NCBI GenBank assembly: GCA_030141605.1
Contig: JAQGDQ010000614.1
Span: forward strand, 1-64,000
DNA length: 64,000 nt
Reading direction: 5' to 3'
Source of the DNA: Tubiluchus corallicola
Taxonomy: Eukaryota > Priapulida > Priapulimorpha > Priapulimorphida > Tubiluchidae
Within the stretch, counting starts at the first letter, position 1; each line of letters starts with the position of its first letter. Positions 3,849 to 43,802 of the stretch are shown here, piece after piece. Position numbers and translations under genes: made by a program. The notes under the pieces were generated by a model. That model was not told where the DNA came from, did not search any database, and saw only the letters and a program-made list of their open reading frames with translations.

Positions 3849-6800
3849 ATGAAAATCGCACTGCAGACAAGAAATGTTCAATCATCTCTGCAGTCCTGGT
3901 TAGACAACGAGTTAGAAGTTAGAGGAATAGATGCTGTTATCTATACACGCTACATCTTGAGCCTTCTGCAGCAGGTAATATTTAATGTGACATTTTCCTC
4001 TTATAAACCACTAGAAACTCCTTTTTGGAGCTGCAAAAGGGTAAATTCATTTAGTTGGTCAGTGATATGGATTATTTTGTTGTTGATAAGCTTAACATTA
4101 CTTTACCCCTTTGTTGTCTGTTTATTAAGACTTTTGTATCTTGCTTGTAAGTTTTTTTATGTTCACTAAATGAGAAGAGAGCTTGATTCTCTGAGTTATG
4201 CCATTAGCAGCGTGCCATGTAGCAAGCCCTGATATCACTTACTGAACACAAGAAATTAAAAATCCTTACATCTGGAGTTACATTGTCAAGCTTGACACAA
4301 GCCACTACCACTGTTTTTTGCATTCAACAAGTTCTGCGAAGTATGTTTTTTTCATCAACCTGTCAAAGAGCGAAAACCAAGTTAGGACCAATCAAAAAGA
4401 AAGTCACTTCAAGAAAACTGAGATTTTCTGTTGCTGTTTCGATGGGATTTGATCTGGCTGTCCTCTAGTGGCTAGCCACAAATTATACACTGGAAAGTCA
4501 TTTAAACTAAAAACAAAGTTTTAGAAGTTTATAAAGGATTTGCAAGCCAAACATCATGGTGTAATCATTGGTGATGTACTCATAGTCGACCTTAGATCAA
4601 GTAATGTTTACTACAAATAAAATTACCATGTTGTTAAATCACCCTCACTTACACTATAAGACCGTGATGTTAATGTCGCATGATCGTGACCACATTTTAA
4701 TTCTTGTCACATCAACTTTTTGTCTTTCAAGGAAATATTCTATGACTATGAAGAGGAAGAGGCTGTGCTGAATAAGCTGTTTGAGTATCGTAAATCAAAG
4801 CAAAAGTCAGGTAGACGTAGACGAGGACCATCACCTTCATTTGGCCGACATGGCATGGATCCTGAGAAAGTAAAGAAATTGGCTGCCATCGAATGTTTAC
4901 TTTCTGCTTCTGATGAGGTATGTGCTAGCGATTGTGACAGCTATTCATTTATAGGTTGCCGTAGTTTAGTCAGTAAGTTTAGAACAGATAAAGTATGTAT
5001 TCTTTGACAATTTTGAGGCCAAAGAGATGCAACGTACAGAAGACATTGTGAATGCAACATACAGAAAACATTTTGACACTGCCAAAATTTTGGTCCACCC
5101 GAGGTCACCCAAAGGTCTCAACAGAGAATGCCTCTATCATGTCGAGTAATATACCAAGTTAAAGGGTGAGGCGAGTTTGACACTAACAAATGTTGGCCTA
5201 CCTGGGATCACCTAAAGGTCATCTACAGGGAATCTCTCAAATATATTGTGTAACAAACATATCAAATTAAAACTTAGAGCGAGATGGGTTTGACACTGCC
5301 ACATTTTGGTCCAGCTGTGGTCACCTAAAGGGCATTTACAGGGAATGTGTCAAACATATTGTGTAAGATATTCAAATGAAGCTTACACCGAGGCGGCTTG
5401 ACATGGTTCATTAAAACATCGAACGTCGTTGACAAATGACTTAATTCTCTTTATTTTGCCAAATCCTTTTGTCCTTCATCTTGGATTTGTGGCAACCTTT
5501 GCATAAAATGCATTTCAAACTGAATGACCAATGTCAAAAATATTGGGCCCTCTAGGGTCAGCTAAAGAGCATCTAAAGGGAATGTCGCAAACAATTGTGT
5601 AATAATTATAGCAACTTAAAGCTTTTGGTAAGGTGGGTTTACAAGGTTCATGGAAAGGTCAGTGGAAGAGCATCACAACAAAAGCACTAAGATCACAGGA
5701 GTAAAGGCTTCCTTTTCATAAAATAACTAATTAGGTTTTTGAAACTACTTACTTAGCCACTTACATAAATGTTTACCAATTCACTCATGCACTTACTTAG
5801 TCCAGTAGTTACTTTTGGTCTCCCAGCAATAATGATAAGAACTTCAAATGAGTGTACATTTCACTGTTATTCGCTGACCTGTGTGTGTTTCCGTAACACG
5901 GTTTTATGACTTTCTTTGTATTGTTAGAGTATGTACAATTGAATAAAATTTACTTCAAAACTTCTTGGAGTCTTGTTTTATCAATTTCAAAACAAATACA
6001 ACTTTCAGAAACCATTATAATGTAACAGTTCTCGACATGACAAAATTTTGCCCCACGCAGGCTCACCACCATTTTACATAATAGTATACGATTTTTCATC
6101 AGGGGACCTGTGCTGTCATTGATGGTGTAGCTGTTGTTGATAAACACTGCAGTGTATGACTATTAATCAAAAGTTTTCTTAATCACGCTTATATATAACT
6201 TTTCTTGCGATTAATAGCCTGATAAACATGTTACTAGTTTGTTTAAGTATGAGGAATCTTCGCTGTTGACAAAAGCTGTATCACGTAGTTCTGCCAACCA
6301 TTGTTTAGTTTGGAGAGTTCATACGTTTCCACTGCGTCCACACACACAGACGGAATTTTTCTGTATGACTCGCATAGACAAAAATTGAAGTAATAATGTG
6401 ACTTATTTATTATCATTATTAGAATCATTATTTTCTGGGCATGTCATTTTCATTGTGTTCGCACAAAAAGCCATGTACACAAATTGATACGCACTTCAAC
6501 TGAAAAGCCTTCATCATTGTGATACGCCTTTTTTCTGTGGACGTAAAATTCATTTCTGTACATGCTGTAGAGTTTAGACATTCGCTTTGTGACAAATTGA
6601 CCCTAAATACAGTCACAGAGATTTCACAAGGCAGATTTAGATTGAAATAGCTTTTGAGGCCAATGATGAAGCAGCAATATTTAGTCCTTGTTATTGATTT
6701 TACTTTTTTGAATGTTTCCATGAATTTGGGGCTGGTTTTGCAATTTTTTGATCCCTGTTGTCAAATTCATGGTAGGGATTTACACTGTACGCTATTTTTG

Positions 6801-9800
6801 CAGAATTTCGACTTTGTCCCATCTGTTAATCTATTGCTATTGCAAAACATTCATAGACCTATTGTACTTTCTTAAAATTCCTTTGCATGTATAATTACAA
6901 AAATTATAAGAAACTAGCTATTATCAGTTGTATAATATTAAAGCTGCTTTTTGTTTCAACAACTCAAAGTGAATATCTATAGGCGGTACAAAAAAGTTGT
7001 AATATATGAACGTGTAAAATTTTTAAACTAAATAAAATTCAAAAAGAGATAGTTTTGCAGTTGCAGTATGCTTGAGCACTGTTTTTCATCCATTATAACT
7101 TGTTGCAGTATTCACTGTTTCTGAAAACTGTGTGTTGTCACTTGCTGTATTGCCGATTTGCTCCTTCGTAAACCATTAAAACGAAATAAATGCTTCTTTC
7201 TCCTAGATACTCAAGTCCCATGTCAAGATTTCGTTCTAAAAATTTTACCACGTTGTAATTAAGGTTGAGATGGTTAAACGTTTAACTGACCGCTAACTGG
7301 CTGTAGCTGTTTAGAAAATCACTAACCATTTAACCATTCTTTCTTTTACATTTTAACATCACACTCGCTGTTTTTTCACAAACAATCACACAAACCACAC
7401 AGAAAATCATTGATAAAATTTGCTTTTAGTTATTGTCCTGCATAACCATTAAGTGCTTGAAGTCAAAATTCTCGGCTTTCTATTGCAATAGCAAAATACA
7501 TTTCTAATTCGTAAAACATGAAAGATTTTAGACAACATCAGAGCAATCCCATAGGCTACAGCGATTGGTTAAGTTTTTCAAACAAGTTTTCGTACCACCA
7601 GTAAAAATTAGTCTTACAAAGATCATGCATATTTCTCGATTTTGTTCTGCAATAAAACGACTAGTAATTTGTTTAAAATTGTGCACAGAAATCACAGTTA
7701 AATTATTCTAATTGCATGATGTTTCAATCGTTTTAATGATAAAGAACATTATGTGACTGAAGTGCTGAATTATTCGAATCTATAGTTTTAGGTTCGAATG
7801 GAGTTCGAACTAAAAAAATCGTTCGAATCGAATTCGATTTGTTTCATGCTCACTCCTAGAAGACATACTAAGTTGAACGAATATATATTATTATATGTTG
7901 TTAGATTTAGGCAATTTCTTCATATTAGTTTGTCATGTGAATGACGCCATCAAGAAACGTTTACATGATTCGTCGCCCGCAATTAATAACATTTAAACGG
8001 TTAACTAAAAAGCCTAACCATCTCAACCTATACTTCATAATGAGTATGGATGCAGTGAAAACAACTTGTAAATGTAAAATGTGTGGACAGAAAAATCTGT
8101 GTATGTGCATGTCAGTACGGAAGTAGTGGAAATGCGACCTTAATTAGATTTAATCTCACTGGGAATTTCAGTAGAATGCTTTATTGTTGGTGTCCCGTAT
8201 ATAAGCACTGTTCACCTAGCAGTAAAATATTGTCTGTGTTATGCCCTTAGAACTACAGTTTGCTTGCACATGCAGTAAGACTTACCAATGTTAACTCACA
8301 AATAAAAATATATAATACTAATTCATGGTAAAAGCAAGCCAAAACAAAAAGCAGTTGTTAGAAGCGCAACATACTTAGAAGTAAATTTTATAAGTGGTTA
8401 AGCACTTCAGATATTTTGTTGCATTTTATGTTAATAAGACACGTTAGACAATCGGATTGGAATGCTGGCAATATTGATGTTTAGATTGTCAGATTTGATA
8501 TTCGGTATGAGTAAAAACTGGATTCAGCACTAGCCAATCCAAACTTTGGGTTTTAATACCTACATTGAAACATATTGTAAATAAGTTGTTCTGATTCTTT
8601 GCCATCAGCTTTTACTCTGAAAAGAAATCACTGAGATGGTGAATTCGTAGTAATGTGGCAGTTGTTAAGTTTTTTATTTTATTTTAAAGTTTTTGTGATT
8701 CCCTTGCACTTGTCATATTTACCTAGTTATGAGCTTTTCATTATATGAATCCATGTTAGTCGTGGTTTTGCATTGCAAATAAACGTAGTTTGAGATGTAA
8801 GATTGTAGCTCTTTCTGTATTGATGGTGTTGTGCATATTACCATGATTCCGAAGTTTTGAAACTAAGTATCGTACTAGTAAATTGAAATGGGTTCTTGGG
8901 AGTCATTCATCTAAGCAGCTTTGATATGATTGATTGGTAATTCAGCTTTTAAATTTTTGTTACTAATCTGCAGCAAAAAACATTTAATGTGCTTGTACAT
9001 AAGTGTGTAAGTATGATGGCAAAAGTAAGAAGTATAATTGCAGCACCAAATTTGTGCCCTGCAGAATCTCTGTTTCTTATTGGTGAACATGGTGTGCTTA
9101 AACAATCGAAATCTGGTGTGTTTGAAGCCCACATCAGAGACTAGCAGATATTAGCAATCAACAATATAATTAGCATCTGTAGTAGAGTATTTATTTGCAA
9201 AGTTTGTCTTGTGTGTTCCCAGCAATATTATAAGAAAGTTTTGATTCTGCTTAGTTATCCCTGTTCGCATGTGGTCTTTTCTTGCATTAGGCCGGCCACA
9301 AAAAAAATCGTTTTTGTGTTACATTGTGAGCTCAAAAACTGTCAATTGGGAGGGCAAATTTTTTTTTAAAAAAAAACTTGAAGTTTGTGAATGTTTAAAG
9401 CTGAATCATAGAATATTTAAATTCTATTGAAACCAGTTTGTTTATTTTCCACTGGTTAGCAGTAATGTTCTAAATTCCTTCAATGTGCATTTTTTCACAC
9501 TTTGCCTTTTAGTTTTTCACACATTATCTATTATCGTATATTTTCTTTTTGTGCAGTATGAAGCCTTGAATTATCTTATGTTCTGATAATTATAGTATAA
9601 GCCGCAATACTACTCAGTCATTAATACGATAATTTCGCGGAAAATACTATAATTTTCAGCCTCCAATATAATAATCAGCACCACACAAAACAGCAATCCC
9701 GGCCCTGCCCGAGAGTTAACTATAAAAGAAAAAGACTGTGCCCTCGCTGAAACAACGATGTTATTTTGAATTAAAAAAATATGCTATTTTATAAGACTGC

Positions 9801-12800
9801 ACCAGTTACGCACCATTCCGGGCCGGGTGTACAATAAAAAATTACCTGGGGGATCAGACGGAAACAGAAATATTTTTATTGTCGGCTTTATCGGGGTTGT
9901 ATCATCAAGTTGGCAATTACTAGCAACTTGCGTACATCTGAAAATATAGAATTTGCTGGTGGGCTTAAATTCTGTAAAGTTTATATTTAAGCGTTAAACC
10001 ACTTGGAATACAGAAATGACTAAAAGTTCTGGAGAGCATCCATGTATTGTTCAGTGTTGGCAATCTTTGCCTGATGCTTACTTATTTAATGATTCTGGAC
10101 TAAGAACAGTTTAAGCCTAAGCACTTAGACTACCTTTGTTTAGGTTTTTGACAACAGATGTCACCGAGTTACTGGAGTTATTGTGCTGTCACATGAATAC
10201 GGAGAGACTTGTTAATGTGAAATTTATTGCATGTTTCAATGATTTTGACGAAGTCGGTTTTTAGATTCTTGGAAAGAGATGGATTTTTGCGTAAACTGTA
10301 ATAAAACAATTTGTGGCGTTGTTCCTGTTGCTTTCAACTTTATTGTTGCGCAATTCATAATTTGCTTATTTAACTTGAAATTGGTTTGGTTATTTTAGCT
10401 ACTTAGTAGTAAGTTTAGCATCATTGGAAACAGTGTAAATATTGTCAATAAAGAAGGAATTTGCAGTATTTAACAATAATTCAATATTCCAAATACTCGA
10501 CAGTAATCAAAATGTCTTTTTAAGATGTTCATGAACTGCTAATGACATCTAAGTGACATTACCACATGTATCGCCAGGTTTAAAATTTCCGGTGTAGAAT
10601 GATTTTTTTGCTGCTTTTTTGAGTAAATTAACGTTAAGAATGAATGAGGTTTAAATTTAACAAACAAATTAATCCAAGCAAGTTTTTTGTGAGTGAAAAT
10701 ACATTGCTAGAATTAGGATTTGGATCCCTCAGATTTACTTTTAGTTTGCCGACAATCAGTTTTACACTTGTCCAATAAAAAAATTACTTGTCACTCGGAA
10801 GCTGTAACACCAGTCGCTAATTTATTTATTTATATGTGATCAGCTTATATGAACATACAGAATGTCATATATATTCAAAAATATTCTTTGTTGAAGAGCA
10901 AATACATGCTTGCTGTGCTTTACCTGAGAAATAGTAGAGTGCCAGAACAGCAAAATTCAGATTGCTTTTAGGGCCAGTTTTAAGTTCAAAAAAACATGAG
11001 CTGTACTGTTTTGTAATTATAAAAAATGTTTTTCATTAGTTGCAGAATATTCTGTCAGTGCAGCGTGTTTCTTGGCTGTAGGCCTATATTAAATATTCTT
11101 TGCTGAGGAACAAATCAGTACTTGGTGATGTCTACCTAAGAAAGAACAGAAATGTACATCCAACTTCCTTTTGTAGCCAGTCTTGAGTTCAAACAAGCTA
11201 TACTTCTCTTAATTATAAACAAGTGATTTCTTTGTTTTGCCAATATATGGTTTAATTGTAGCGTTTATGTGTAATTTGGTAGAAGAAAATTTAACAAAAA
11301 TTTTCAAATAGGTCAATTCAGGTGTTGACAACGTGCTGTTCCTCTCCTCAGTCATGGTTAAGTTTTCTACACACACAGAAGGTCTTTGTTGAAGTTTTAC
11401 ACTGGCGTTAGTGGCTTGTTATAAAGAGCGTGCTGTTTGCTCTTCTAGTAAGTTTACAAAGCCCTCCGAACTCTCTTCTCAATGTCAGGCAGAGTTCCCA
11501 GAGTTGACTGCACGGTCTGGCTTCATGCGCTAGTTAACGTCTAAGCTGAGCATGTGACTACAGGCTTCCACTAGTTCTCTGTTTTTGATATTTTCTACAA
11601 CACTTCAGTGGACAAGGAGGTCTACGTGTGATATTTTGTACAGTAGGCCAGGCAGTATTTTCTATAATTTTAGTGCTTCTACTGTAGTGAATGTGTTTTT
11701 TACATCTTCATATATTTATAACATCACATCAGCAGACGAAGCTGAAGCTTTTAAGAGAGATGTACTTTTGATACTACATCACCGTTTAAACCACGGCTAT
11801 TCCAGTTCATTTTTGCTGTACGTGTATACCGGCTCTTTATGTATATACATATTAACTGGTACAAAATTTTTCCATGAAGCAGTGGGACTATGCTTCTTTG
11901 TTTGAAATTCTTCATCTGATTTGCTGCAGCATGAAAAGTAAGTAGGTCATTTAACTTTCTCTTCTAGCTGTAATCAACACACTGTTTCAGGGACGTGCTG
12001 TATTGCATTCTAGTTTATTGGCATGCGAAAGTGAAGCCAGGTTTTCAATGGCTTGTCCCAGAGCTGAGCAAGCTGTTGCTGTTTAGTCGGCAGTTCGTCA
12101 AACCATTGTGGGTCAAACAGCGGTTACCTTACAACCTGTTTGCATTTGTTATTTGCCTTGATGCCTGATAGTGGGAAATTTTGCTGCCAAGGTCAAGATG
12201 CCTGTGATAGTCTGTTATAGTGGTGCATTGAGAAAATAATAATCATTTTCTCTTTGGATGAACTGCCTTTCTTACTGTCTCTCTAGAAACTTCTAAGAAA
12301 ATCTCATTGAAATATTTACGTACAGTTTTGTTTAGTTGCATAGGGTGGGCATATTACTTATTCCAAAACACCACTAGTCTCCAGCTTAAAAATTAAAAAG
12401 TGGATATTTCACACTCTCACTTGTTCGTTCTTAATACTACATGTGTTCTTCAGTAATTGACAAAACAACGTGATTAAACAGAGCTAGCAGACAAGAAGAA
12501 GCAGCAAGGTGGCAGATGTCCTATTACTGCCCTTACCAGTTGATTTGAGCACAATTCACTGAATTGATAAGTAGTGTCTGTTTTGCTGTTGTTGTGTTGT
12601 TACCTTGTAGCTAATTCTTGAAACAGGAAAAACACAATGTAGACAAAAAAGAATTTTACCCCCTCCCTCAGGGAGTATACAGGAGAGGAGGCTTCTGTTT
12701 TGCTGTTGTGTTGTTACCTTGTAGCTAATTCTTATAATAGGGAAAACCCAATGGAGACAAAAAAGAATTTTATCCCCTCCCCCCAGGGCGTATACAGGAG

Positions 12801-15800
12801 AAGAGGGGTACAGGATGGTGCATATAGTGGGAGAATCCCAGTCCTTATTGAGAGGATCCAACATTGACAAAAATATTTTACTCTCTTCCCCAGGGAGGGT
12901 GACCAAGATTCGAACAATTAGAACAAAGGTGGTAAAAGCAAATTTTTTTCGACAAAAAATATCTAGTGTAGATTTTGGATGATGGGTGATATCTTTAGAG
13001 CAATGGCCTTAATAATCCTCAATCTCTCAATGGAGGATCCAGGATGGTCACTAGGTTTGTGCAGTGGAAGAATACGAGTCAGCCCAAAGTGGTGAATTAG
13101 ATTGACCTGGCATCTACAGATATTCCAACACTGACGGAGATATTTTAGCCCATCCCTATCAATATTTGTACTTGAAAAATGTTTGACCTAGTTTGACCAA
13201 ATTGCGAATCAAATTTGGTCAAAAAGAATGACCTTTTGTCAAATATCTAGAGCTTTATGGTGTCAAACATGAGAATCAGGGGATCCACTCCCTAGGTTTT
13301 TTGTGACTGAAATTGTATAAACTATATATTTTACCATGCACAATTCATAGAATCCAGGTATTTATGCTAGTAAAGTTGCAAGTTTCTTCATTTGGAGTTA
13401 GTAGAAATTTGGCATGCATTTGTGATAGTATATTTGCTGAACAAACAGGAGATATGTAAATTCGAATGTAAAATATAATTTATAGTTTTTTTTTGAAATT
13501 CATAATTGCTAATGACACGAAGCGTAGATTTATATTCTTGTTTATTTATGTATACTGTCAACTGTAATAGCTTCACTGATTTACTGATCTAGGTAAAATC
13601 ATTTTTTGTAAATTTAAAATCAACAAAATTTTACTTCCACTCTTATTAAATTTTATTTATCAGCATATTGTATTTTTTGCAGGATTGTGATGTAGAAGGA
13701 TTAGTTGAAGAACTGTATAAAAAATTACAAGAATCACAGCAACAACAAAGTTAGTGGATAATTTTATTTTCGTTTTAAATTTTAAATGATTATTCCAATT
13801 AATCAAAAATCTGGTAATGTTCTTGCAGTTTTACAAGTCATTGCTATTCTGTTTGATTTTAGGTGAAATTTGCCGTACAGCGCAACGGTGTTCGTGTGTA
13901 CCTGCATGCAACAGTCAAAGCACTTCCGATAATAATACTCCACAAGTTTTAGCAGAAAAGTAAGACGAGTCATTTTTTCTCATTCTTTGAAGTTAATTAT
14001 AACACAGTTAATTTGTGATTCCAGTTTCTTTTGTGTTGCAATTGGTAATGTTCACTAAACTGATTTCTCACTTAATTTAGGTACTATGCAGCATTTCCTG
14101 CATTGAGAGGAAGTTCTGAACCTCAGTCTTCTCCAGGTTCGCAGAGCGACTCGTCAGTAACAGTTGTATCAGTGTGGCATAAACGTAAACTTCAGCTAAA
14201 TAAAAAAGGTTTGCTTTACTTATATTCAAATATGATTTAAATTTTTCAGAGTCTCTGCACATGGCATCATTCATTTTGTTATAAGAGTGCTAAATGTTGA
14301 CGCGATTCTGATATATGCATTACAAGTAAAGCTCCTAGGTATCATTTTAAATGAATATTAGGATTGGAGCCATAAATGTGATTTATTAAAAATTGCAGAA
14401 ATTCCTAAAATGCGTCTAATTGTCAAATCGCTATTTATGTTTATTTATATCTGTATTTGGTGTGATCTGTAAATCTGTATTTCTAATGTACTTTTGCAGC
14501 ACACTTACAAATCTTACATCCCTATTCAAACAAGCATTTAGAGTTTAAATTTTAAGTGATAGTTAAGTGACTATAAAGTATAGGCTTGAATTTGTTAAAA
14601 ACTGTTCAGTTTAGCACTTACTGATTTAATTATTTTGAGTATAGCTAATTATGCATATGAAAGAAAAGACAAACAACTTCTTGCTGTCTTTATATAAATC
14701 CTGTATCTGCTAATATTAGACATTAAGCCGACAATAAAAATACTTCTGCCTCATATTTATCGCACATCCGGCCAGGAATTTCATAATTTTTTTGGATGTT
14801 CATGTACTTATCTGGCGCAATTATGTTAAAGCGTATTTTTTTAATTTAAAATATAGAATGCAATAATTATTATAACTTCGCTGTTTCGGCGAGGAGGTAG
14901 CCATATTTTTCTACGGCTAACTTTCGGCCAGGGTTGCCATTTTGTATGCCGCGAATAATCGGATTGGAGGCTAAAAGTTATCGTATTTTACGCCAAATCA
15001 GCATATTAATAGCTGAGTAGTATTGCCGCTTAACCATAATTATTAGAACATGCGTTCATACTTTACAAAAAGAGACTACATCAGAATTAATAATTGTACA
15101 TAATTTAGTAATGCGAAACGAAAAACTAAGAAAACGAAGCATGGAAAAATGTGCATTGAAAAAAATTTAAAACATTACTGCTAACCAGTGGGGGAAATAA
15201 GCAAACTTTGATTTCAACCGATTTTAAATATTCCACAATTCAGTTTTTAACATTTTCAAAGCTTTAAAAAAAATTTTGAATTTTTTATTGTTTTCCTCCC
15301 CTCCCTACTGACTCTTTTCAACTCGTGAAGCAAGACACAAACAAATCTTTTTTTGTGGCTGGCCTTACGCAATGAGATTTAATAAATTTTTAAGTAATGC
15401 AACTGAATGTCAGGTATAGTGGTCTATCACTTCACCTCCGTTGTGACGTAAGCACACTCGGACATCATTTTGAACAGCTCTCTTTGGCAATCAAAATGAC
15501 ACCTAATGTCTAATCAGCAGATAAACTGAGTGTGCTTTTTTATACACAAAAATTTGCCGAGCGTCAATTATTTTTACAAGAAATTAAAACTTCAAGTAGT
15601 CAAAAAATCGCTTCATAATTGAAGCATGATGTATTGACAAAGGTTCAAAGAACTACAATATGTAATATTTGCAATAATAAAACAAATATAAAAAAATAAG
15701 GTTAATCTGAAATCTGTCAAAAGGTGTGCTTGCTTATCAGAATGCATGTTTATTATTTTAGATGTATTGGTGCCTTGCAAAATTTGTGAAGTTGTGTTTT

Positions 15801-18800
15801 CTAAGTGCTGCCAATTTGGGTCATATGCTTGTTAATATTTTCTGGAAACTGATTGCAACATTGTTCATTGTGCATTAGTGCAATAATGTCAGAGAAATAT
15901 AACTGATTCCTTTCTTCTTATATGTACAATACTTTCTCACAAACAGGTTCAGGGCAGGAAAACGGGCAAAGTAAAAGAAAAGGCTTTCATAATTCCATTA
16001 AACGCAGAAGACCAATTCATGATATAACCAACAAAATGCCACATTTTGTTAGCAGGTATGTTTCTGTAATTTATAAAGTTTTTTTATTTTGTTTGACAGT
16101 TGTGATTTGATGAGTAAAGCGATAATTTTTGTCTGCTTTTGTTTAGAGCGCAATCTGTTCCTCACGAAGAGCCGGAATTATTGATTAAAAAGGGCAAAAT
16201 GGCACACAGTTGGCCTGAAAAATCAAGTTATGTGCAGCCACACAGGTCTAACACAAGCAAAAGACACTCGCATTTCAAAACGGTCAACAACTTTGCCAGA
16301 CGAAATGATGCTTCACAAATTGCTTCCAAAATTCATAACAGAATTAAGCTGGTTGATGAGGAGCAGCTTGTTGAGTATACTAAGGAAGCCATGAACGTTC
16401 CCAGTACTAGAGGATCTCCAGAAATTGAACATTTCTTGAGCAAAACAGCAGGTCAAAATCCTAAAAATGGGGTAGAAAAAGTTGTCACAGAAGATGAAGC
16501 TTGGTATACTAGCCCGATACATACCATGTTTGACAGTGGTGCTGGGAATGTAAAACGTTTATATAACCGAGTCCAGAATGGTGCGATAGCTTGTGGCAGT
16601 TGTAGTGACAATAGGGTAGACAAGGAAAGTAATCCTCGGGCATCTGCTCGAAGGCTTTATCAACGTGGTAATAAAACACAGGCTGATTTTTCCATTCATG
16701 ATGGCATAGTTGATCTTGGTGATCAACGTAATCAAGCACACTTAAGTGGAATACAACTTCAAATTATTGGTAAAGAATTTGATACTGGTAAGAATATATG
16801 CAGCAATTTGCAAGTTGATGAAACTAAGAAGAGTTTTGTTGATGAAAGTGCTGCTGTAGACAGTAAAGGACTAGATTTACATGAAATGAGACAAGCATTG
16901 CTATGTCTACAGGAAGAAGATCTTACTGAAGGGATTTCTGAAATGATGCAGGATAGCTCAGGTATTCTCAATAAGAGTACCTTGTCTCCTGCTTGTATTT
17001 GGAGTCCTTCTCCATCACATTCAGTTGCACATTCATTTCTTTCCAATCTTCCTGAACTTGATGCTTTGAATGTTGAATGGAATTTTGGTGATTTCAACTT
17101 CAATTTTCTCCAAGACTTTAATTCTGATTCAGCCCTAAATGATATCATTGAAGATCATTTGCTTTTGTCTCCCAATTCTATCTTTTTAGATTGTGAAAAG
17201 ATTTTTTCACATCGCGCACTTTCACCTACGTTTAGGCAGCCATGTATAGGCACTAATCCAAAAGTTAACCTTTTTGACAAGACTGTTGGTTCTAAGAAAG
17301 CTACAGCTTGTGACCTTGGAGTTTTTTCCATTAGGACACATGAATCTGAAGAAGAACATTTTGACTTTGGTAATTTAGACCTGCATGGTTTACGTCCCTC
17401 AAGTATTCAGCATGTGTACGAAACTTTATCACAAGCATCCAATGATTTTAAGCTTTGGGACATTGATCTACAGCTACCATCAGATGAACTATGGTTACAT
17501 TTTCAATCAAAATCACCTCGTGTTTTGGAGTTTTTTCTGGATTGTGATGATCATTTTGGTGATGTTCATAAGAGCTATGATGAATTTACAGTTGTCAAGA
17601 GAGAACGAAGTTTGTCTTTGGACAGTGCTGATTTGTATGGTAGTCCTGGAAAGTGGTCAGACACTTTTAATAATCGTACGGCCAGTGGTGATCTTAGTGC
17701 GTCAGAAAAGCAGAGTTTCAGTTTGCAAAAAAATTCTGTTTTTCATAGTGAGCCAATAATTTCTCTTGCTGGTACAAGTTTTTTTAATCACAGTTATAGT
17801 GAAAGTGGATTTGTTGAAGTCAGGACACTTCCGAAATCTGTGAAGGCTACATTGTTAAAACATGAAGTCAAAAGTGTGCCTACAAAACATGCAACGAATC
17901 TCCAAGATGATGAAGATTTGTTAACTTCGCCTAAAACTCATTTTCGCCCTATTCGTCCTGATGATTTGACAATTGATTGTACTACTGGAGCAGAAGGACT
18001 TGAAGATTTGGAAGATCAATACTGGATTCCAGAAGTGAGTGTTATGAGTCGGCCATTTCCTGCCGGCTGTAAACTTCTTGGAGAAGAATTTCATACTTAC
18101 CGAGTTCCCGTGGAAGAACTAACTACAGAGGAAACTTTTGCACCAAAATTTAAGAAAGTTCATCCAGATAAATATTCTCAAACTGATTTAGATGCCGAAC
18201 ATGCATATCCTCGGCAAGAACATGATGTTGAAGTGAGCAGTTTGCTTTCTGGAACGAACAAATTTGATCTGCAATCTACAGAATCTAAAGAGAGCATTTC
18301 TAATAAGGACCACATCAGTGGAAAAGCAACACCAGAAGGGATGCCTGGTCTATTCAATAGCAGCTCATTTCTTTTTGGGCTATTACCATGTTCAGTATTG
18401 TCCAGTGAGGAGAATAGTCGCAGTCCTTCCAGAAATGTCTCTGACTTTGATAATACATCAAAACTACCAGAAAATATCAATGTGGATGCACTTGACATTT
18501 CACGAGATATTTTCTACACAGCATCACACAAATGGACTGATTTTGAAAAATCTGCTGATAGGAATGAAAACATTTGGTCAAGCGTTCCATCATCGTTAGC
18601 TAATAAAATAAGCAACTCCAATTCCGGCACTCTGCATATACCGATTAAAATAGAAAATAGAACTGAATACAAGGAATTAGAAGAGAAAAGTACTTTGAGT
18701 GCAGATGACGGGATAGACGACATTTTGGAGACTGTTACTAAAGATAGGTGGTCTCAACATGTTGTGTTTGAGAAAGATTTATTTCCTTCAAGTGATGCTA

Positions 18801-21800
18801 AAGCAGCTAACAAGAGCAACTTTGCAAATTCAGATATTTCATTAGGTCACATGAAAGATTTTTTTGTGAATGAGACAACTGATGAAAGCAATAGACTTTG
18901 GCTGAGTCCAGTTGAGGACCAGCATATTGTGGATGATGGTTGCAAAAAGGCTAGTATTTGGTCTATAGGTGATGAAGTAATTCAGCTCTCAACAGATAAT
19001 TCAGATTTTGATAAAATAGCAGAAGAAGGTGAACATGTTCTTTTTGGCTATGGGACTGATTATGGTCCTCAGGAAAGAGGAAGAGGTGAATACAGGAAAC
19101 TACAACAGTCCGGTATCTGGGATTATTGCCAAGCGAGTGAAAGCACAATCAGTGTGGATTCAAAATCGAAAAGCAACCTAAGAAATCCTAATCCAGGAGA
19201 AACATTGGAGCGTCAGTGGAGTTTGCAGGAAGTGGAATGGAAAGATTCAGGTGAGTTGGGTGGATCAGAATCATTAATGACTCGCTTTGGAAAATGGGAT
19301 CCAACTTTTGCTGTTACTGGTAGTGTAGGAAGCTCGTTTAAGAACACATGGCTGTCGGAACAAAGAATGCTTTTTGACGATAAATCTTCAGATGGGTGGC
19401 TGGATACCAATGTAGATTTAGTTGAAACTAGTAAATCCTCTCTTTGGACAAAGCAGAGCAATTGTTGTGTTGGACAGTCAATATATAGGAAAGAAGGTGT
19501 TTGGATGGAAAAGAGTCTAGCCTTCAAAGGTGGCACAGCTGGATCTAATATTTATGTAACTGGTGCTGATGATGATATATTTAAGATAGATCATCAGCCA
19601 GCAAAGTGTGAAGACGAAATGAGGTATAGCCCAAAAAATGAGGAGTTTTGTGTCGGTTCAGTTGAACAAATGAAGCGTGAACTGAAACAAGAACAAATGC
19701 AACTGATGCATGACATAGACAGTCTTCGCAATGACGAACTTAAACATAAGACTGCTGATGGCCCACTTGTTGGTGTTGGTGGTAAAGGATCATTTAATGT
19801 TCTTTTAACTACTAAAGATGATGTTGGGGTGGTATCATTTGCTAGAAAGAAGAAAGGCTATGTGCAATCTGCTTACGATGATGAAGATGAAGAGAATTTG
19901 TCTTGGGAAAGCCAAGAAGATATGGAGGTATGTATGTTTTTATATTGTTTTATATTGCAAGCTAGTATTCAGCAATTAGCAGGACTTCTTTTGTTTAATA
20001 ATCTCTGCTTAATACATTCGTTGAACTGATACTGATCAAAAATTTCTTTACTTGTCAAAGTCTTTAATTGCATTTTTTTACCTGGTTTGCAGGGCGAAGA
20101 GCTACTTGGAAGTTTAGAAGCAGTTCTGCACATACCGAAAGACAAATTAATATTTTCAACAGATCTAGAGGAAGAGTGGAAAAGCAATAGCAAATCATTT
20201 GAAGTACAGGTTCCTCGCCATCGCCAGCAGCGTACCAGTAAAGGTACTTTATTCCTCTGAGTTTTTCCATAAAACTGGCGAAATTGATAGATATTGTAGT
20301 TAGTAGCAGATCCTCCTTAAAATTGCTGAGGATTGTTGTTTTTGGTGCAAAGAATTTTCTACGAAGAGTTTGGCTGGATTCTTAACAAGTGTTATGTTAT
20401 CCTTCATGCTGGTCTATATGCACAATCACTTGTCAGAACAGATCATTTTTATATGTTTTTAGGTTATTTTATGAAAGCTGTTTTTGATATAAAAACTATT
20501 CATTTTTGTTAATCTTGCAACAGGTTTTTACAAATTGTATGTGCATTTTATACATTCTTCATTTGTTTGTTTTTTTTCGGTTTTTTACTAGATTTGTCCA
20601 AGAGGCCCTGTAGCTTCTTCTTGGAAGGTAGCTGTCGCAGAGCTGACTGCAAATTTTCCCACAATATTTCGCGCATAACTTGCAGATTTTGGGAAGAAGG
20701 GAGCTGTTTTAAAGGAATCACTTGTCCTTTTCTGCATGGTTATGTAGGGTATGTCTTTACTTTTCTCCTTCCAATATATTATTATTTAAAGCATTTTTGT
20801 GCATATGTGATAAATGCAATATAGTGTTAAAAACACTTATTTCTTATTTCACTTCCATTAAAATTGGTATATTTGCTTTTGTTTTGTTTCAAACTCTTTG
20901 ATTGACTTGTAACTTTATTTCTTTTTTCTGTCCTTATAAAAATGTGTAGTGTTGTAAAATTGTCTGCAATGCAATCATAGTAATTTTATACAATTTTGTT
21001 AATACAGTATTCGCTTTCCAATTATTTTTAGTGATGATGAGCACAGACATTCAGGATCTGGCACTCCGTCGTGCATCAACACTGAGGGGGCTGTGTTCGA
21101 GTTAGAAATGGATTCTAAATGCGATAAGGTTGTGTAGTGTTTAATACTGTCTTATCCATTTTACCATTGCTGCTTTCTACATTGGTTTGAAAAACTCGAA
21201 AAAGCACATATTATGAAAGGAAAATAACACTGATAATCCACTCCTAACTGCAAAATTTTGGAAACAATTCTTATATTAATGTTTTAATGCATGTTGACCA
21301 CATTTTTGTCAAGGTACCTGAGCATATGCAAGGCGTAGTACAGTAATTTTTAAGCATTAAGTCATCTCTCTTGTCAGTTAATAGTTATGCATTTCTCTTC
21401 TTGTCATTTGCACCTTGCCAAAAGCTCAAAAGACCAGTAAGCTGCAAGATTTTTTTCTTTTGATATTATCTTTAGATAAATAAGTTCTTTTTCCTACTGT
21501 ATTCCTATTAGCTATGTGTAGGCTGAAATTAATCTTTAGTGGTTACGCAATAGTAATTTTGATTCTCAGAAGTAAGGTTTGAATGAAATAGTGATACCTT
21601 AATGTACACAATAGAAGAAATAGCAGAAAGGGATTTGCTAACAAAACAAAAGTTTATTGTTGTTATTGTCTTATGGCATTCCATGATGAGAACTGATGAT
21701 TTTAAGAACTAGTTTTGGTGAATGCTAGTCTAGCATCTCTTTTACTGTGGCCAAAATTTTGTGTAGCCTTTACTGCTGCTATTACTGTCTCTGTATTTAC

Positions 21801-22031
21801 TTCTGTTAAATTTTCTTATTGGTTTCACAGGGGTCTTCTAGTAGTAGTAGTAGTACTCCACAAGAGGCTGAAGCAGCTGACAGGTCAGACGAGTTGCGCC
21901 AGAAATCAGAGCAGCTAAAGCTAAAAGCCAATGCCGAGAGAAAGAAACTTGGCCGATTTTCAATGAGCCGATATAAAAGTTCTAAATCTCATTCCAAGTC
22001 GGCTCCTATTGACATCCAATCCATAAAGTAA
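3849..22031 (+). CDS. Large tandem-CCCH zinc-finger protein with CCDC43-like N-terminus (11 exons, 1,699 aa)
   Basis: Exons: 3849-3974, 4732-4917, 13683-13749, 13863-13959, 14081-14208, 15947-16055, 16147-19927, 20093-20243, 20592-20748, 21032-21128, 21831-22031. Every junction has GT/AG and compatible phase, and the total is 5,100 nt (1,700 codons with stop). Residues ~14-125 (SWLDNELEVRGIDAVIYTRYI, then KKLAAIECLLSA) resemble, from memory, the N-terminal domain of CCDC43. The middle, mostly one 3.8-kb exon, is acidic, Ser-rich, low complexity and dotted with isolated Trp. Two fingers follow: C1555-x7-C-x4-C-x3-H1572 and C1579-x7-C-x5-C-x3-H1597. The tail is Ser/Lys-rich. CCCH fingers usually bind RNA, so an RNA-linked role is inferred. 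I do not recognise a named orthologue. The start is the ATG opening exon 1; an additional 5' exon or a tiny exon in intron 2 cannot be excluded. Confidence 0.85.
5065..5680. repeat. ~110-bp tandem repeat, about 4 diverged units
   Basis: Units are recognisable from TTTGACACTGCCAAATTTTGG-like starts near 5073, 5177 and 5289, with a further diverged unit near 5530. Each continues with GGTCACCTAAAGGTCATCTACAGGGAATGT-like and CAAACATATTGTGTAA-like blocks, ending in AAATTAAAGCTT and a GAGGTGGG-like block. The spacing is about 104-112 bp. The array lies early in intron 2 of the CCCH gene. No protein is encoded. Confidence 0.75.
7262..8029. mobile_element. Possible non-autonomous DNA transposon (768 bp) with AGGTTGAGATGGTTA termini
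   Basis: The left end AGGTTGAGATGGTTAAACG and the reverse complement of the right end AGGTTGAGATGGTTAGGC are identical over the first 15 bases, followed by similar GTTAACCG/TTTAAACG-rich sub-terminal sequence. The interior has TTCGAATC/GTTCGAAC-rich palindromic sequence near 7790-7850. A clear target-site duplication is not visible, so the exact ends and the superfamily (hAT-like by appearance) are uncertain. It encodes no transposase. Confidence 0.45.
9290..9887 (+). mobile_element. PIF/Harbinger-like non-autonomous element, copy 1 (598 bp)
   Basis: The element starts GGCCGGCCACAAAAAAA and ends ATTGTCGGCT. Reversed, that end reads AGCCGACAATAAAAAT, an imperfect terminal inverted repeat of the start. 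It is flanked on both sides by TTA (9287-9289 and 9888-9890). A 3-bp TTA/TAA (TWA) duplication is the hallmark of PIF/Harbinger insertion. No transposase frame is present. It lies in intron 2 of the CCCH gene. A second copy in opposite orientation lies at 14726-15364. Confidence 0.75.
10870..11235. repeat. Two-unit tandem duplication (~215 bp spacing)
   Basis: Blocks AAATATTCTTTGTTGAAGAG, CTACCTGAGAAA, GCCAGTTTTAAGTTCAAA and CTTAATTATAAA occur in the same order near 10875-11030 and again near 11085-11220 with moderate divergence. Intronic; no coding content. Confidence 0.6.
12577..12810. repeat. Two-unit tandem duplication (~117 bp)
   Basis: A unit beginning TCTGTTTTGCTGTTG and containing GTTACCTTGTAGCTAATTCT, GACAAAAAAGAATTTTA, CCCCTCC and GTATACAGGAGA is present at 12577 and again at 12693 with few changes. 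More diverged relatives of the C-rich part continue to about 13150. The high similarity suggests a fairly recent duplication. Intron 2 of the CCCH gene. Confidence 0.7.
14726..15364 (-). mobile_element. PIF/Harbinger-like non-autonomous element, copy 2, inverted (639 bp)
   Basis: This is the reverse-orientation relative of the 9290-9887 element. On + it starts AGCCGACAATAAAAAT and ends GTGGCTGGCC, flanked by TTA at 14723-14725 and 15365-15367. Similarity to copy 1 is spread along its length, for example the CTGGTTAGCAGTAATGTT block, the ACTACTCAG block near the middle and the ATTATCTATTA-like region. It lies in intron 5 of the CCCH gene. Independent TTA duplications for both copies show two separate insertions. 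Confidence 0.75.
15448..15538. repeat. Small palindromic element in intron 5
   Basis: AAGCACACTCGG near 15450 is mirrored by CTGAGTGTGCTT near 15525-15536. A second CATTTTGA/TCAAAATG pair lies inside, so the stretch could fold as one imperfect hairpin. It is probably a miniature inverted-repeat element; no target-site duplication could be assigned. Confidence 0.4.
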
Positions 22032-36390: not shown

Positions 36391-38141
36391 TTGCTTGTAG
36401 AAATTAAACATGATAATCTTCTTACTCAACATGTGGATTTTCCTAGTAGAAACAAATTTTTTCTTGAACTTTTATTGTCAAACTGCTCTGATTGCCCGCC
36501 AAGTCTGGTCTTTCTTCTAGTGACCATGACACTATTACTTTCTTCTGTGGATTCAACTATTCATATCAGGTTAACTGCCCCTGGAGAGATTATAACAAAA
36601 CCTCTTTTCCGCAAATTAGAGATTATTCCGCTAATATTGACTAGTATAATATGTTCATTAATTTCGATGTAAATGGTTGTCGAACATTCTAAGATAAATA
36701 TAATAATGTGGTAAATACTTTCGTCCCTCTAAGAGGAATCTCTTCAAATTCTCGCAAATATGCTTGTGTCCCTTATTCTGCTATTATTCGAGCCAGAGTT
36801 AATAAGAGTCACTTCTGAAATTTGTGGTATATGACTTCTTTAAATAATGTGAAAGCCAAATATACAGAAGCTTCTCAGTGGTTGAAATAATCTACTCTTG
36901 ATATCAGAAAATGGTATAAAAAAGTAAGCTAGTACAATCAGAAAGAATTGGCAAAGATTTTTTTGTTATGGCAAATGCTTTTAAAACCTGTGAACTGTAC
37001 AAGCGGCATCAACAACAAGAGATCCTGCGCTATCGCATCTATTATACCGTTATACTGTCGTGATTAGGTGTTAAGCGAGTATACTAATAGAAACCCCATA
37101 TTTTTCCGTAAAATAATCGTCGATTAAGGATTTACACTTTACTGTGGTTGGTGCGGTAATCACCGTGGCAAGCAGATCATTCCATTCATTCACAATTCTC
37201 ACAGAAAATGAATATTTACGAATATCAAGATGTGACTGCTCTTTAAACAATTTTAAACCATGTCATCTAGTTTTAGAATCAATATCTACTATTGTTATAG
37301 TTCCTTTATACGAAGCTGTTGTTCTGCATTTTTTTTGGAATTTGCATCAGTTGTGAAAGGGCACTCAGCTTTGCAAGAACAAGATTCCTTCTCAAGACCA
37401 TGCAGATTCCAAACGAATCCAAACTTTTCATTGCCCCATTATTTATATGCCTGCATACTGTACCAAAAAGTGAAAAGAGAGTCATACATCAAATTAAATG
37501 TACTTCAAAACTACGCTTTACGACTAGTTCATGGCCATTCTTTGAAATCATCTCACAATACAAGTAAATATTCTGCCACCTCTTTAAAAAACTCCACGAA
37601 AATCCCGATACTAGAAGCCCACAGAGATTATCAAACTCTCCTGTTTCTCTATAAATATATCAACAATATCAATTCTCCTTTCAAAAACAATATGCCCCCA
37701 CTTCTTAAAAACCCCGGTATGAATAACAGAACACTAAATTTAAGAAACATTAGAACGAACAACCAATATGGAAAGAATTCCATTACTAAGCAAGCAATAC
37801 AACTTTGGAATTCATTACCGACATCACTAAAAACACAGCAGCTCTTTATCAATATTCAAGTCTAAATTAAAAAAAAACATTTAATGACTCGTTTTGAATA
37901 TCCGACATACGAACAAGATGATACTTACTCAAATCATAATTTCATTTTTCCTAGACCTTACTAAACTAGTTTATATTTTATTTTTGAATTATTAGTTGCA
38001 CTTATAGTTTAGCTTGCACCAGATGCATTTGCCCAGAACAGTGTATGTTTTTATATGAACTAACACTGATTGTCTGTCTTTTAATATGATGGTCAATGTT
38101 TTAAAATGGCAAATAAAGATTTTACCACTACTACTACCTAC
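36391..38141 (+). mobile_element. Broken non-LTR retrotransposon (LINE) remnant
   Basis: A frame at 36391 reads LLTQHVDFPSRNKFFLELLL, matching the end of the LINE endonuclease domain (VDFPTR...LDLVLS pattern). The reverse-transcriptase part is lost or shredded by stops. At 37404-37865 a frame reads VLQNYALRLVHGHS, FLYKYINNINSPF and ITKQAIQLWNSLPTSLKT, the usual LINE C-terminus. The 3' end has AATAAA at 38111 and a short (ACT)n tail at 38124-38141. CR1/Jockey-like in style; exact clade not assigned. Inactive. Confidence 0.75.
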
Positions 38142-39585: not shown

Positions 39586-41369
39586 GTAAACCATATACAT
39601 AGTCTAGTTTATATTTGAGATTTTTCATACGCATTTGTGTAAGCACTTTTGTGTTATTGAATTCGTGCATTATTTTGACTTAATAATATGTATAGTTAAC
39701 GCTGTCGTATAGTACTTATATTATCTTGTGCTGATACTTGGTATTTGTGTGAGCCTGTTACTGACTAAATTCATTTGTAAAAATCATTAGTTTGTTAGTG
39801 CTGTACTTTTGTTCACTTAACCAAAGTTTTATGTGGCATAGAAATGGAAATAAGGGCCCTATGTTCGCATTTTTACGTGTTTTTCATGGGTGATAATTGT
39901 GACTCAAGTTGTGTGTTTAGCTTATGTCTGTTACTTACAGATGCAATTACTTTTGGCTTCGTTTAAACAGTGTTTTATTAACAAACAAATCAATATTATG
40001 CAACATACGTTCATTTGAAGAGAAGACACAATACTAAACAAAATGCTAATGAGATATGCTAACAGATTCAGAAGAATCTATATTAAAGCCCCCCACGAAA
40101 GGTTTCATCATTCATTGCAGTTTAACATATAATTAATTCTTAAGTTTGCTTTTGTTGATTATCAATAAAAGAGAAAAACGTTAAACATGCTTGAAGACTT
40201 GTTCTTGACAAGAACTAGTGTAGTTGAAATACACTGTACTGTAAAACTACTATTATTATCCTGAGACTAAAAATTTTATTGTTGCTTAATCATTCATATC
40301 TGATTATCGTTTTCACTCGAACTAAGTACAATTGAATTTTGTACTTATTTTGTTTATTTACATATATTGAATGGAAATCTAGTTACTTCTTAACTGTTTC
40401 ACTTTTACGATTATATTTCTTAAAACAATTTAAATGAAGTTATTTTTTTAGTCACAAATAAGAGAAATTGGTCATTATTTCAGTGCGTCATAAAACTTTT
40501 TATTTCTTTTAATATTAAAGGCCTGTCAGTAATTGGTTGCCAAGTGTTACTGGCCACATTAATACTTCATTGTTCATTCAGCATATAGGAAGTTACAGCT
40601 ATCATTTATCAGCAATTTTGATTTTTGTAATGAAATATTACTGATTTCATGACTGGCGAATTTTCACTTTCTCTCTCACTATTTGTTACAGAATTCATAG
40701 AGTAAATGATTTTTATATTGTGTCTGCTAATGTTCTTTGAATAGTACTGTTTATTGTGCAACTACAATTTGTACTGTGTAATCCAGAGTAGAAAAAGTTT
40801 ATCATGCAGAAACACTTGGGGTGAATAATATAGTTAATAGTACAACTTCTTTCCATTGTCAAATTGTAGGTTCAATATTGTCTGGGTTGTGAATGTTTGA
40901 TTTGTGTAATATCTACACCTGTATAGTCACAAGTCAAAATTTTATTTGGTTTTCCTCAATTCTTTGACTTACTGAATCGCAAATATTTTGAATTTCCCAA
41001 CGTGATTTTGCTTTCTAAAAGTGAACATCCGTTCCACATTTTAATTTATATTTGGCTTACTTGACATGGTGTAAAACAGCAGTCAATTGTGCGCAGAGCA
41101 CCACTTCCTCCACTTTATTAAGTTCATTTTTCATAGCTCTATAGAATAGAGGGTTTCATATGTAATCTGGGTGTGTTATGTTTATAAAGGAATTTTATGT
41201 TGCTGGTTAATACCAATTTTGCAGCTTTTATTGTATTATTAAAATGAAGAGTTGTTGTGGTTTTAGCCTTTTCTGTTATATTGATATATGAATATTAATT
41301 CATTCTCTGTCGTTTTGTAGTCTTTTATTTGATTTTTCTTTTTCTGCAGGTTTGCTGTTAATAAGAGAA

Positions 41370-43802
41370 ATGAGCCAACAAGGCTATCAGTATCAGAGAA
41401 GTCCTGCAATGCCCCAACAGCAGGGAGGGCAACAGTACATGGATGCTGGACAGGAAATGCATGACAGCAATGCTAAAACCATGATGTGGGCTCAGAATCA
41501 GTACATGACTGATTCAGGCATCATTTCTGGTAACCCGTCACATGCTCCATCTATGAGCAGCAAAGCACACTCTGCCAATGATGATTTAGATATGGATGGA
41601 AGTGGCATGGGTTATGATTGGGATCAGAACTACCCACCACAGGGCTACACACAAGAACAGGTTGATGAAATGAATCAACAGCTAAATCAAACAAGAGGTC
41701 AGCGAGTTCGAGCAGCCATGTTCCCGGAGACACTTGACGAAGGCGTTCCCATTCCTTCTACCCAGTTTGATCCCCAGCAGCCAACAGCTGTCCAGCGCCT
41801 TGCCGAGCCGAGTCAGATGCTGAAACATGCTGTCGTGAATCTGATCAATTACCAAGATGATGCTGACTTGGCAACACGTGCGATTCCGGAGCTTACAAAG
41901 CTTTTGAACGATGAGGATCAGGTTGTCGTATCACAGGCCGCAATGATGGTACATCAACTTTCAAAGAAGGAGGCATCTCGTCATGCAATCATGAATTCTC
42001 CGCAGATGGTAGCAGCTCTAGTTCGTGCTATGACCAACTCAAATGACGTAGAGACAACACGATGTGCTGCAGGAACGCTTCATAACTTGTCACATCATAG
42101 GCAAGGATTGCTTGCAATATTCAAGTCGGGGGGTATTCCAGCACTGGTTCGACTGCTCAGTTCCCCAGTGGAATCAGTATTGTTTTATGCAATTACTACT
42201 CTCCACAATCTTCTCCTTCACCAGGAGGGATCAAAAATGGCTGTCAGGCTTGCAGGAGGATTGCAGAAGATGGTTGCCTTATTGGCCAGAAACAATGTTA
42301 AATTCTTGGCGATTACTACAGATTGCTTGCAGATTTTGGCATATGGAAATCAAGAAAGCAAACTGATAATTTTGGCTAGTGGTGGACCTGGAGAGCTTGT
42401 ACGTATAATGCGTTCTTACAATTATGAAAAATTGCTGTGGACAACCTCTAGAGTATTGAAAGTTCTTTCTGTTTGTCCCAGTAATAAACCAGCCATTGTC
42501 GAAGCAGGTGGCATGCAAGCACTTGCCATGCATTTGGGTCATCCAAGCACTCGACTTGTACAAAATTGTCTGTGGACACTGAGAAATCTGTCTGATGCAG
42601 CCACCAAGCAAATAGCACAAGAGAATATGGAGGGTCTGCTGTCAATGCTGGTGCAGCTTCTGTCTTCTAATGACATCAATGTCGTCACATGTTCTGCCGG
42701 AATTCTGTCTAACTTAACATGCAACAATCATCGCAACAAGGTACTCGTATGTCAAAGTGGTGGAATAGAAGCACTAGTTCGCACTTGCATTCAGGCGGGA
42801 GATAGAGAAGAAATTACAGAACCTGCTGTTTGTGCTTTGCGTCACCTAACCAGTCGCCATCCAGAAGCAGAAATGGCACAAAACGCTGTGCGCTTGCACT
42901 ATGGCCTACCTGTTCTTGTCAAAATGCTACACCCACCTAGCCGTTGGCCATTAATTAAAGCTGTAATTGGCCTGATTCGTAACTTAGCCCTTTGCCCTGC
43001 CAATCATGCTCCTTTGCGTGAACATGGTGCACTGCCGCGCCTGGTTCAGCTGTTGATTCGTGCCCACCAAGATACACAGCGTCGAGCTTCTATGGGATCC
43101 AATAGCAGTAGTGCATACGCTGACGGTGTGCGCATGGAAGAGATTGTAGAGGGAACCGTAGGAGCTCTTCACATTCTTGCGAGAGAAGCACACAACAGAG
43201 CTGTCATTCGAGGTCTGAACTGTATTCCGATATTTGTACAGTTGCTGTATTCTGATATTGAAAATATTCAGCGAGTCTCTGCTGGAGTTCTCTGTGAGTT
43301 AGCTGCCGATAAAGAGGGAGCGGAGATCATAGAACAGGAAGGTGCCACCGCACCACTTACTGAATTGCTACATTCTCGGAATGAAGGTGTTGCCACATAT
43401 GCTGCAGCCGTGTTGTTCCGTATGTCAGAAGATAAGCCTCAAGAATATCGGAAGAGGCTCTCTGTCGAGTTGACCAGTTCGTTGTTTCGAGCTGATCAGG
43501 AATGGGGACAACCACAAGATCTTGATGCGATGATGATGGGCGACGAAGCCTATAACGACCAGATGTATCCACCGCAGCACAATACCAGTCATGGTAGTGT
43601 TCACAGCACTCAGCATGATCCCCGATCCCAACAAGACTATGATATGCATGGGCAAACAATGGATATGGGAGGAGGGAATTATCCGGCTCCGATGGACATG
43701 GGCCCTCCAGGAGGTGATATGAACTTTGACAGTATGAATCTTGATTCCATACCACCAGCAGATAACAGTCAGATGGCAGCATGGTTTGATACTGACCTGT
43801 GA
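41370..43802 (+). CDS. CTNNB1: Beta-catenin, complete in a single coding exon (810 aa)
   Basis: Dual-role protein: links cadherins to alpha-catenin at junctions and acts as TCF co-activator in canonical Wnt signalling. The N-terminus holds the phosphodegron [14 protein letters not shown] (residues 48-61), keeping the GSK3/CK1 register S49, S53, S57, S61; the site matching human Thr41 is Ser. Lys65 matches human Lys49. The alpha-catenin contact region [13 protein letters not shown]...NLINYQDD (Tyr161 equals human Tyr142) is conserved. Twelve armadillo repeats span about 160-690, with the TCF-charged-button lysine context ([30 protein letters not shown]) intact. The C-tail ends AWFDTDL, the PDZ-binding form. 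Human protein is 781 aa; the extra length is in the Gln/Met-rich N-terminus and the tail. The start is the first ATG after the acceptor, MSQQG. Neighbouring genes have introns within the coding region, but this one has none. Confidence 0.97.

Follow-up and report, generated by a model that had tools for sequence, protein, structure and literature searches.

The window, by which we mean the whole stretch of 64,000 nucleotides analysed here, harbours an 11-exon gene that, by its sequence, is a KIAA0232 homologue of the DUF4603 family, apparently single-copy, from an invertebrate bilaterian. DUF4603 (Pfam PF15376) is the family of human KIAA0232. The gene encodes two intact CCCH zinc fingers, and its product is probably an RNA-binding adaptor. 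The new part is this finger tail, encoded in exon 9 and apparently joined to the DUF4603 body by in-frame splicing, whereas the vertebrate counterpart seems to be finger-less.

Gene model and DUF4603 membership

The eleven exons (3849-22031), rebuilt from the DNA, add up to 5,100 nt and encode 1,699 amino acids plus the stop codon, with zero internal stops. The features of the gene are the following:

3849..3974, + strand, exon 1: residues 1-42, where the N-terminal DUF4603 domain begins, with CCDC43-like word order; rebuilt from DNA
4732..4917, + strand, exon 2: residues 43-104, comprising an acidic stretch, a basic patch and the LAAIECLLSASDE helix; exons 1 and 2 together match DUF4603 with E 3.3e-15
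4918..13682, + strand, intron 2: 8.8 kb, holds a diverged interspersed repeat (12500-13100); DUF4603 match unbroken into exon 3
13683..13749, + strand, exon 3: residues 105-127, GLVEELYKKLQE; the DUF4603 score rises
13863..13959, + strand, exon 4: residues 127-159; rebuilt from DNA
14081..14208, + strand, exon 5: residues 159-202, with the words YYAAFPAL and SVWHKRK; DUF4603 match reaches residue 167
15947..16055, + strand, exon 6: residues 202-238, basic; rebuilt from DNA
16147..19927, + strand, exon 7: residues 238-1498, long protein middle, with a weak DUF4603 stretch at 831-921 (THFRPI..)
20093..20243, + strand, exon 8: residues 1499-1549, linker, zero Met
20592..20748, + strand, exon 9: residues 1549-1601, carrying the pair of CCCH zinc fingers; nearest solved structures are CPSF4 fingers 1-2
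21032..21128, + strand, exon 10: residues 1601-1633; rebuilt from DNA
21831..22031, + strand, exon 11: residues 1633-1699, protein end rich in Ser and in Lys/Arg, and stop codon
22598..22603, + strand, AATAAA: the first one past the stop codon

GT-AG borders were found in all ten introns, and exon 7 is located in a stop-to-stop open reading frame of 1,303 amino acids. Codon scores favoured the used frame in ten of the eleven exons, each of which outscored about 95-100% of the intronic stretches; the training set consisted of exon 7 and the neighbouring beta-catenin open frame, and exon 7 thus scores itself by construction. The exception was exon 9, where the used frame was not the best one and 15% of the intronic stretches equalled its score. 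This low score fits the unusual Cys-rich codon use, and coding by chance was excluded because of the two CCCH matches in this exon. Within the open frame, no Met other than that at 3849 precedes the N-terminal domain, and an additional coding exon may lie further upstream. The original prediction of eleven exons in phase, encoding one protein of 1,699 amino acids, was borne out by the GT-AG borders throughout and by the absence of internal stops.

The full protein matched DUF4603 with an E value of 1.2e-24 (86.4 bits; cut-off 27), and the earlier statement of "no standard family" was therefore wrong. Residues 13-167, distributed over exons 1-5, are colinear with profile positions 16-161. Exons 1-2 scored 55.1 bits, which increased to 73.9 bits with residues 105-122 (18 residues of exon 3) and to 88 bits with exons 3-6 added, to residue 224. 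Since the match continues unbroken over the 8.8-kb intron, with a gain of 19 bits from exon 3, exons 1-5 belong to one gene; the junction of exons 2 and 3, for which confirmation had been sought, joins two sides that are adjacent in the profile. The DUF4603 model has 1,297 positions, and beyond the N-terminus only positions 1093-1185 were matched, by residues 831-921 of exon 7 (weak; 10.8 bits alone, E 0.08). DUF4603 was the one family listed for this segment, its order is colinear, and the stretch was counted in the full-length scan too. The profile scan gave no DUF4603 match in exons 8-11. The PF15376 search of the 344-Mb genome detected this gene at 3885-3974 (30.9 bits versus a cut-off of 27), and no second DUF4603 gene was found there.

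Similar to KIAA0232 (D5Ertd579e in mouse), the protein is long, with 155 colinear N-terminal residues, a weak colinear stretch in the middle, and no further domains between. Unlike KIAA0232 as described in mammals, it possesses a pair of CCCH fingers, located in about 200 C-terminal residues beyond the DUF4603 match, and human KIAA0232 is probably about 300 residues shorter. The suggestion that the protein is lineage-specific does not apply to its body, which belongs to the DUF4603 family, but it is possible for the fingers.

The repeat in intron 2 (12500-13100) contains a 114-base tandem duplication at 12590-12806, and seven other copies were seen elsewhere in the genome, with 70-78% identity.

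Relation of the N-terminus to CCDC43

The N-terminus had been described as a CCDC43-like domain. Its word order (SWLD..LE..G.D..Y..YIL..LQ) is real, being present in SWLDNELEVRGIDAVIYTRYILSLLQQ at residues 16-42, although DUF4603 scores the same residues far better. The genome possesses its own CCDC43, a separate gene on another contig (C1977). It can be aligned with residues 13-60, with a gap left by the unequal lengths of the acidic stretches. This alignment is weak (BLASTP E 0.38), and five of 5,000 shuffles were as good. At most, CCDC43 is remotely related to the first ~45 residues, and the weak resemblance may reflect a single helical segment of distant common origin.

It is highly improbable that the protein is a new fusion in which a CCDC43 domain was joined to CCCH fingers and which lies outside all standard families. 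Such a fusion would agree with the word order, with the alignment to the genome's own CCDC43 being better than all but those few shuffles, and with a search in which a human CCDC43 bait ranked exon 1 second among all places of the whole genome (E 0.48, 52% of 27 residues); this bait served mainly to find the genome's own CCDC43, and the conclusions rest on the latter. However, DUF4603 accounts for these residues with E 1e-24 and the pairwise alignment with CCDC43 is weak. Furthermore, the remaining coiled and charged part of CCDC43 is missing here, and the intron after residue 42 is without counterpart in CCDC43 exon 1. Membership in CCDC43 was rejected in view of this alignment and of the length of 1,699 amino acids, compared with a short protein that has a charged, coiled C-terminal half. 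In both, the protein opens with the helical word order and continues with an acidic stretch, whereas CCDC43 is a short separate gene with no fingers, no DUF4603 match and another intron position.

The Pfam scan of the genome's own CCDC43 gave neither a DUF4603 match nor a match to a CCDC43 model, and that of the N-terminus gave nothing but DUF4603. A PWI profile was absent among the Pfam matches up to E 10, a range in which HMMER filters may drop weak ones. Nothing significant was obtained for the N-terminus in the PDB (best E 0.12), and no relatives were found in viral contigs, as expected for an animal gene. RBM26 and RBM27, which combine a CCCH finger and a PWI-like N-terminus within one protein, are a precedent for such an architecture; unlike the present protein, in which no RRMs and no PWI model match were found, they carry RRMs. 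In a BioID study, RNA-binding proteins were reported as neighbours of human CCDC43 (PMC12266347). Such neighbours would be consistent with RNA-protein complexes as a common place of action, by an analogy that is only suggestive.

Tandem CCCH fingers and proposed role

Two CCCH fingers, six residues apart, were found at residues 1555-1597. Finger 1 has the spacing C-x7-C-x4-C-x3-H (Cys/His at 1555, 1563, 1568 and 1572), and finger 2 the spacing C-x7-C-x5-C-x3-H (1579, 1587, 1593 and 1597). Both agree with the definition C-x4-15-C-x4-6-C-x3-H of the CCCH motif (PMC2478707). The zinc ligands are intact in eight out of eight positions, and zf-CCCH was matched with E 7.8e-11 by the finger stretch alone and with 29.3 bits (cut-off 20.5) in the full protein, in line with the tandem finger predicted at the C-terminus.

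The nearest solved structures in a PDB sequence search were fingers 1-2 of CPSF4/CPSF30 (E 8.7e-8), and finger 2 has the KG..C.FLH pattern of CPSF30 finger 2. In the same genome, the nearest sequences resemble ZC3H3 and CPSF4, with about 50% identity over 46 residues at most; the fingers were thus not copied recently from any other finger gene that the search could detect. ZC3H3 and CPSF4 are RNA-processing proteins, and CPSF4/CPSF30 belongs to the mRNA 3'-end processing machinery. Both have the nearest fingers by sequence; unlike the present protein, they are without the DUF4603 body, and they carry more than two fingers. No relatives of the fingers were found in prokaryotic genome contigs, as expected for an animal gene. 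Without an alignment, AlphaFold modelled the finger exon too poorly to be of use (pLDDT 53).

Exons 8-10 encode no Met ahead of the fingers, the first being residue 1627, past them. Likewise, no AATAAA is present between 18602 and 22598, hence none from exon 7 to the fingers. Exons 7 and 8 are joined in phase 0, and introns 7 and 8 have 165 and 348 bases. With neither a Met nor an AATAAA, a separate finger gene could start only from a hidden first exon, which would have to lie in intron 7 or intron 8, inside exon 7 or further upstream. We consider it very unlikely that there are two genes, of which the first, a DUF4603 gene, would end after exon 7 by reading through to the stop at 20029, and the second, a small CCCH gene, would comprise exons 8-11 and a hidden first exon of its own. 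The DUF4603 similarity does end ahead of exon 8, and exon 7 can be read into intron 7 as far as a stop 33 codons on. Against this stand the phase 0 join with good GT-AG sites, an intron 7 of merely 165 bases, the lack of an AATAAA before 22598 and of a Met ahead of the fingers, and the clearly coding exon 8 according to the codon scores. The splice signals, the phase and the absent start codon suggest that exons 7, 8 and 9 are linked and that the fingers do not easily make up a gene of their own. The view that exons 1-11 are one gene and not two merged ones is supported by the colinearity of exons 1-5 with DUF4603, the phase-keeping GT-AG joins and the Met-less exons 8-9.

The exon 7 frame remains open for 33 codons into intron 7 (19928-20029), and retention of this intron would yield a finger-less protein.

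As an RNA-binding adaptor, the protein would bind a protein partner with its folded N-terminal domain (residues ~13-125) and hold single-stranded RNA with the C-terminal tandem fingers. The middle of about 1,300 residues, probably mostly disordered, would tether the two. CPSF30 finger 2 is among the fingers reading the AAUAAA signal. Because finger 2 of the present protein keeps its pattern, one might start by guessing at an A-rich target, which is reasonable but no more than a guess. The earlier suggestion of a poorly described, probably RNA-binding protein gains support from the tandem fingers and from their nearest relatives, which are RNA-processing proteins. Among short partner motifs, no PAM2, eIF4E-binding or PP1 motif was found in the protein, and there was one weak LxxIxE-like match.

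Some CCCH fingers bind protein and not RNA, and it is conceivable, but unlikely, that the fingers serve only protein binding or stability in a scaffold not acting on RNA. They align with fingers 1-2 of CPSF30, the first of which binds protein partners. Nevertheless, the two close fingers carry aromatic and basic residues, as do those of tandem RNA binders, and both nearest relatives in the genome are RNA-processing proteins.

In mammals, KIAA0232/D5Ertd579e was described in a 2026 preprint as having no recognizable domain and as associated with autism, with social and synaptic plasticity defects in the knockout mouse; nucleotide binding or transferase activity was guessed as its role (PMC13252388). 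D5Ertd579e is not among the 58 genes of a survey of mouse CCCH proteins (PMC2478707). As far as the literature consulted shows, the finger-bearing form is a variant of a known family, and it may be routine in invertebrate annotations. Tentatively, KIAA0232 proteins could ancestrally have been RNA-binding adaptors with a CCDC43/PWI-like N-terminus and tandem CCCH fingers, of which vertebrates lost the fingers and kept the partner-binding body. If this is true, an autism-linked gene without known domains gains its first molecular role. The invertebrate homologue with intact CCCH fingers points to RNA rather than to nucleotide binding or transferase activity, which is a first testable hint of RNA handling in the family.

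Other observations in the window and the genome

The window also contains a beta-catenin homologue at 41292-43802, a single open frame of 836 residues with Arm repeats (E 1.5e-49), which ends in AAWFDTDL and whose coding part is apparently intron-free. An exon at 47915-48262 includes a LAMTOR3-like (MAPKK1_Int) stretch, VDGLHAIIISDRDGIPVIRG, with 20.5 bits, below the cut-off of 25. When judged by eye, open frames at 37257-37865 and 50510-51043 resemble non-LTR reverse transcriptase C-termini; they gave no Pfam match.

At least 118 homeodomain matches were found in the 344-Mb genome, several of which resemble Hox1, Hox2, Hox3 and central Hox by eye. These matches make an invertebrate bilaterian the best reading of the genome, in which a search for COX1, intended to use the mitochondrial code, gave no match. 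Two ZFHX-like open frames, of 1,933 residues (C1925:306718-309168) and 2,118 residues (C1789:791256-794063), possess four homeodomains each.
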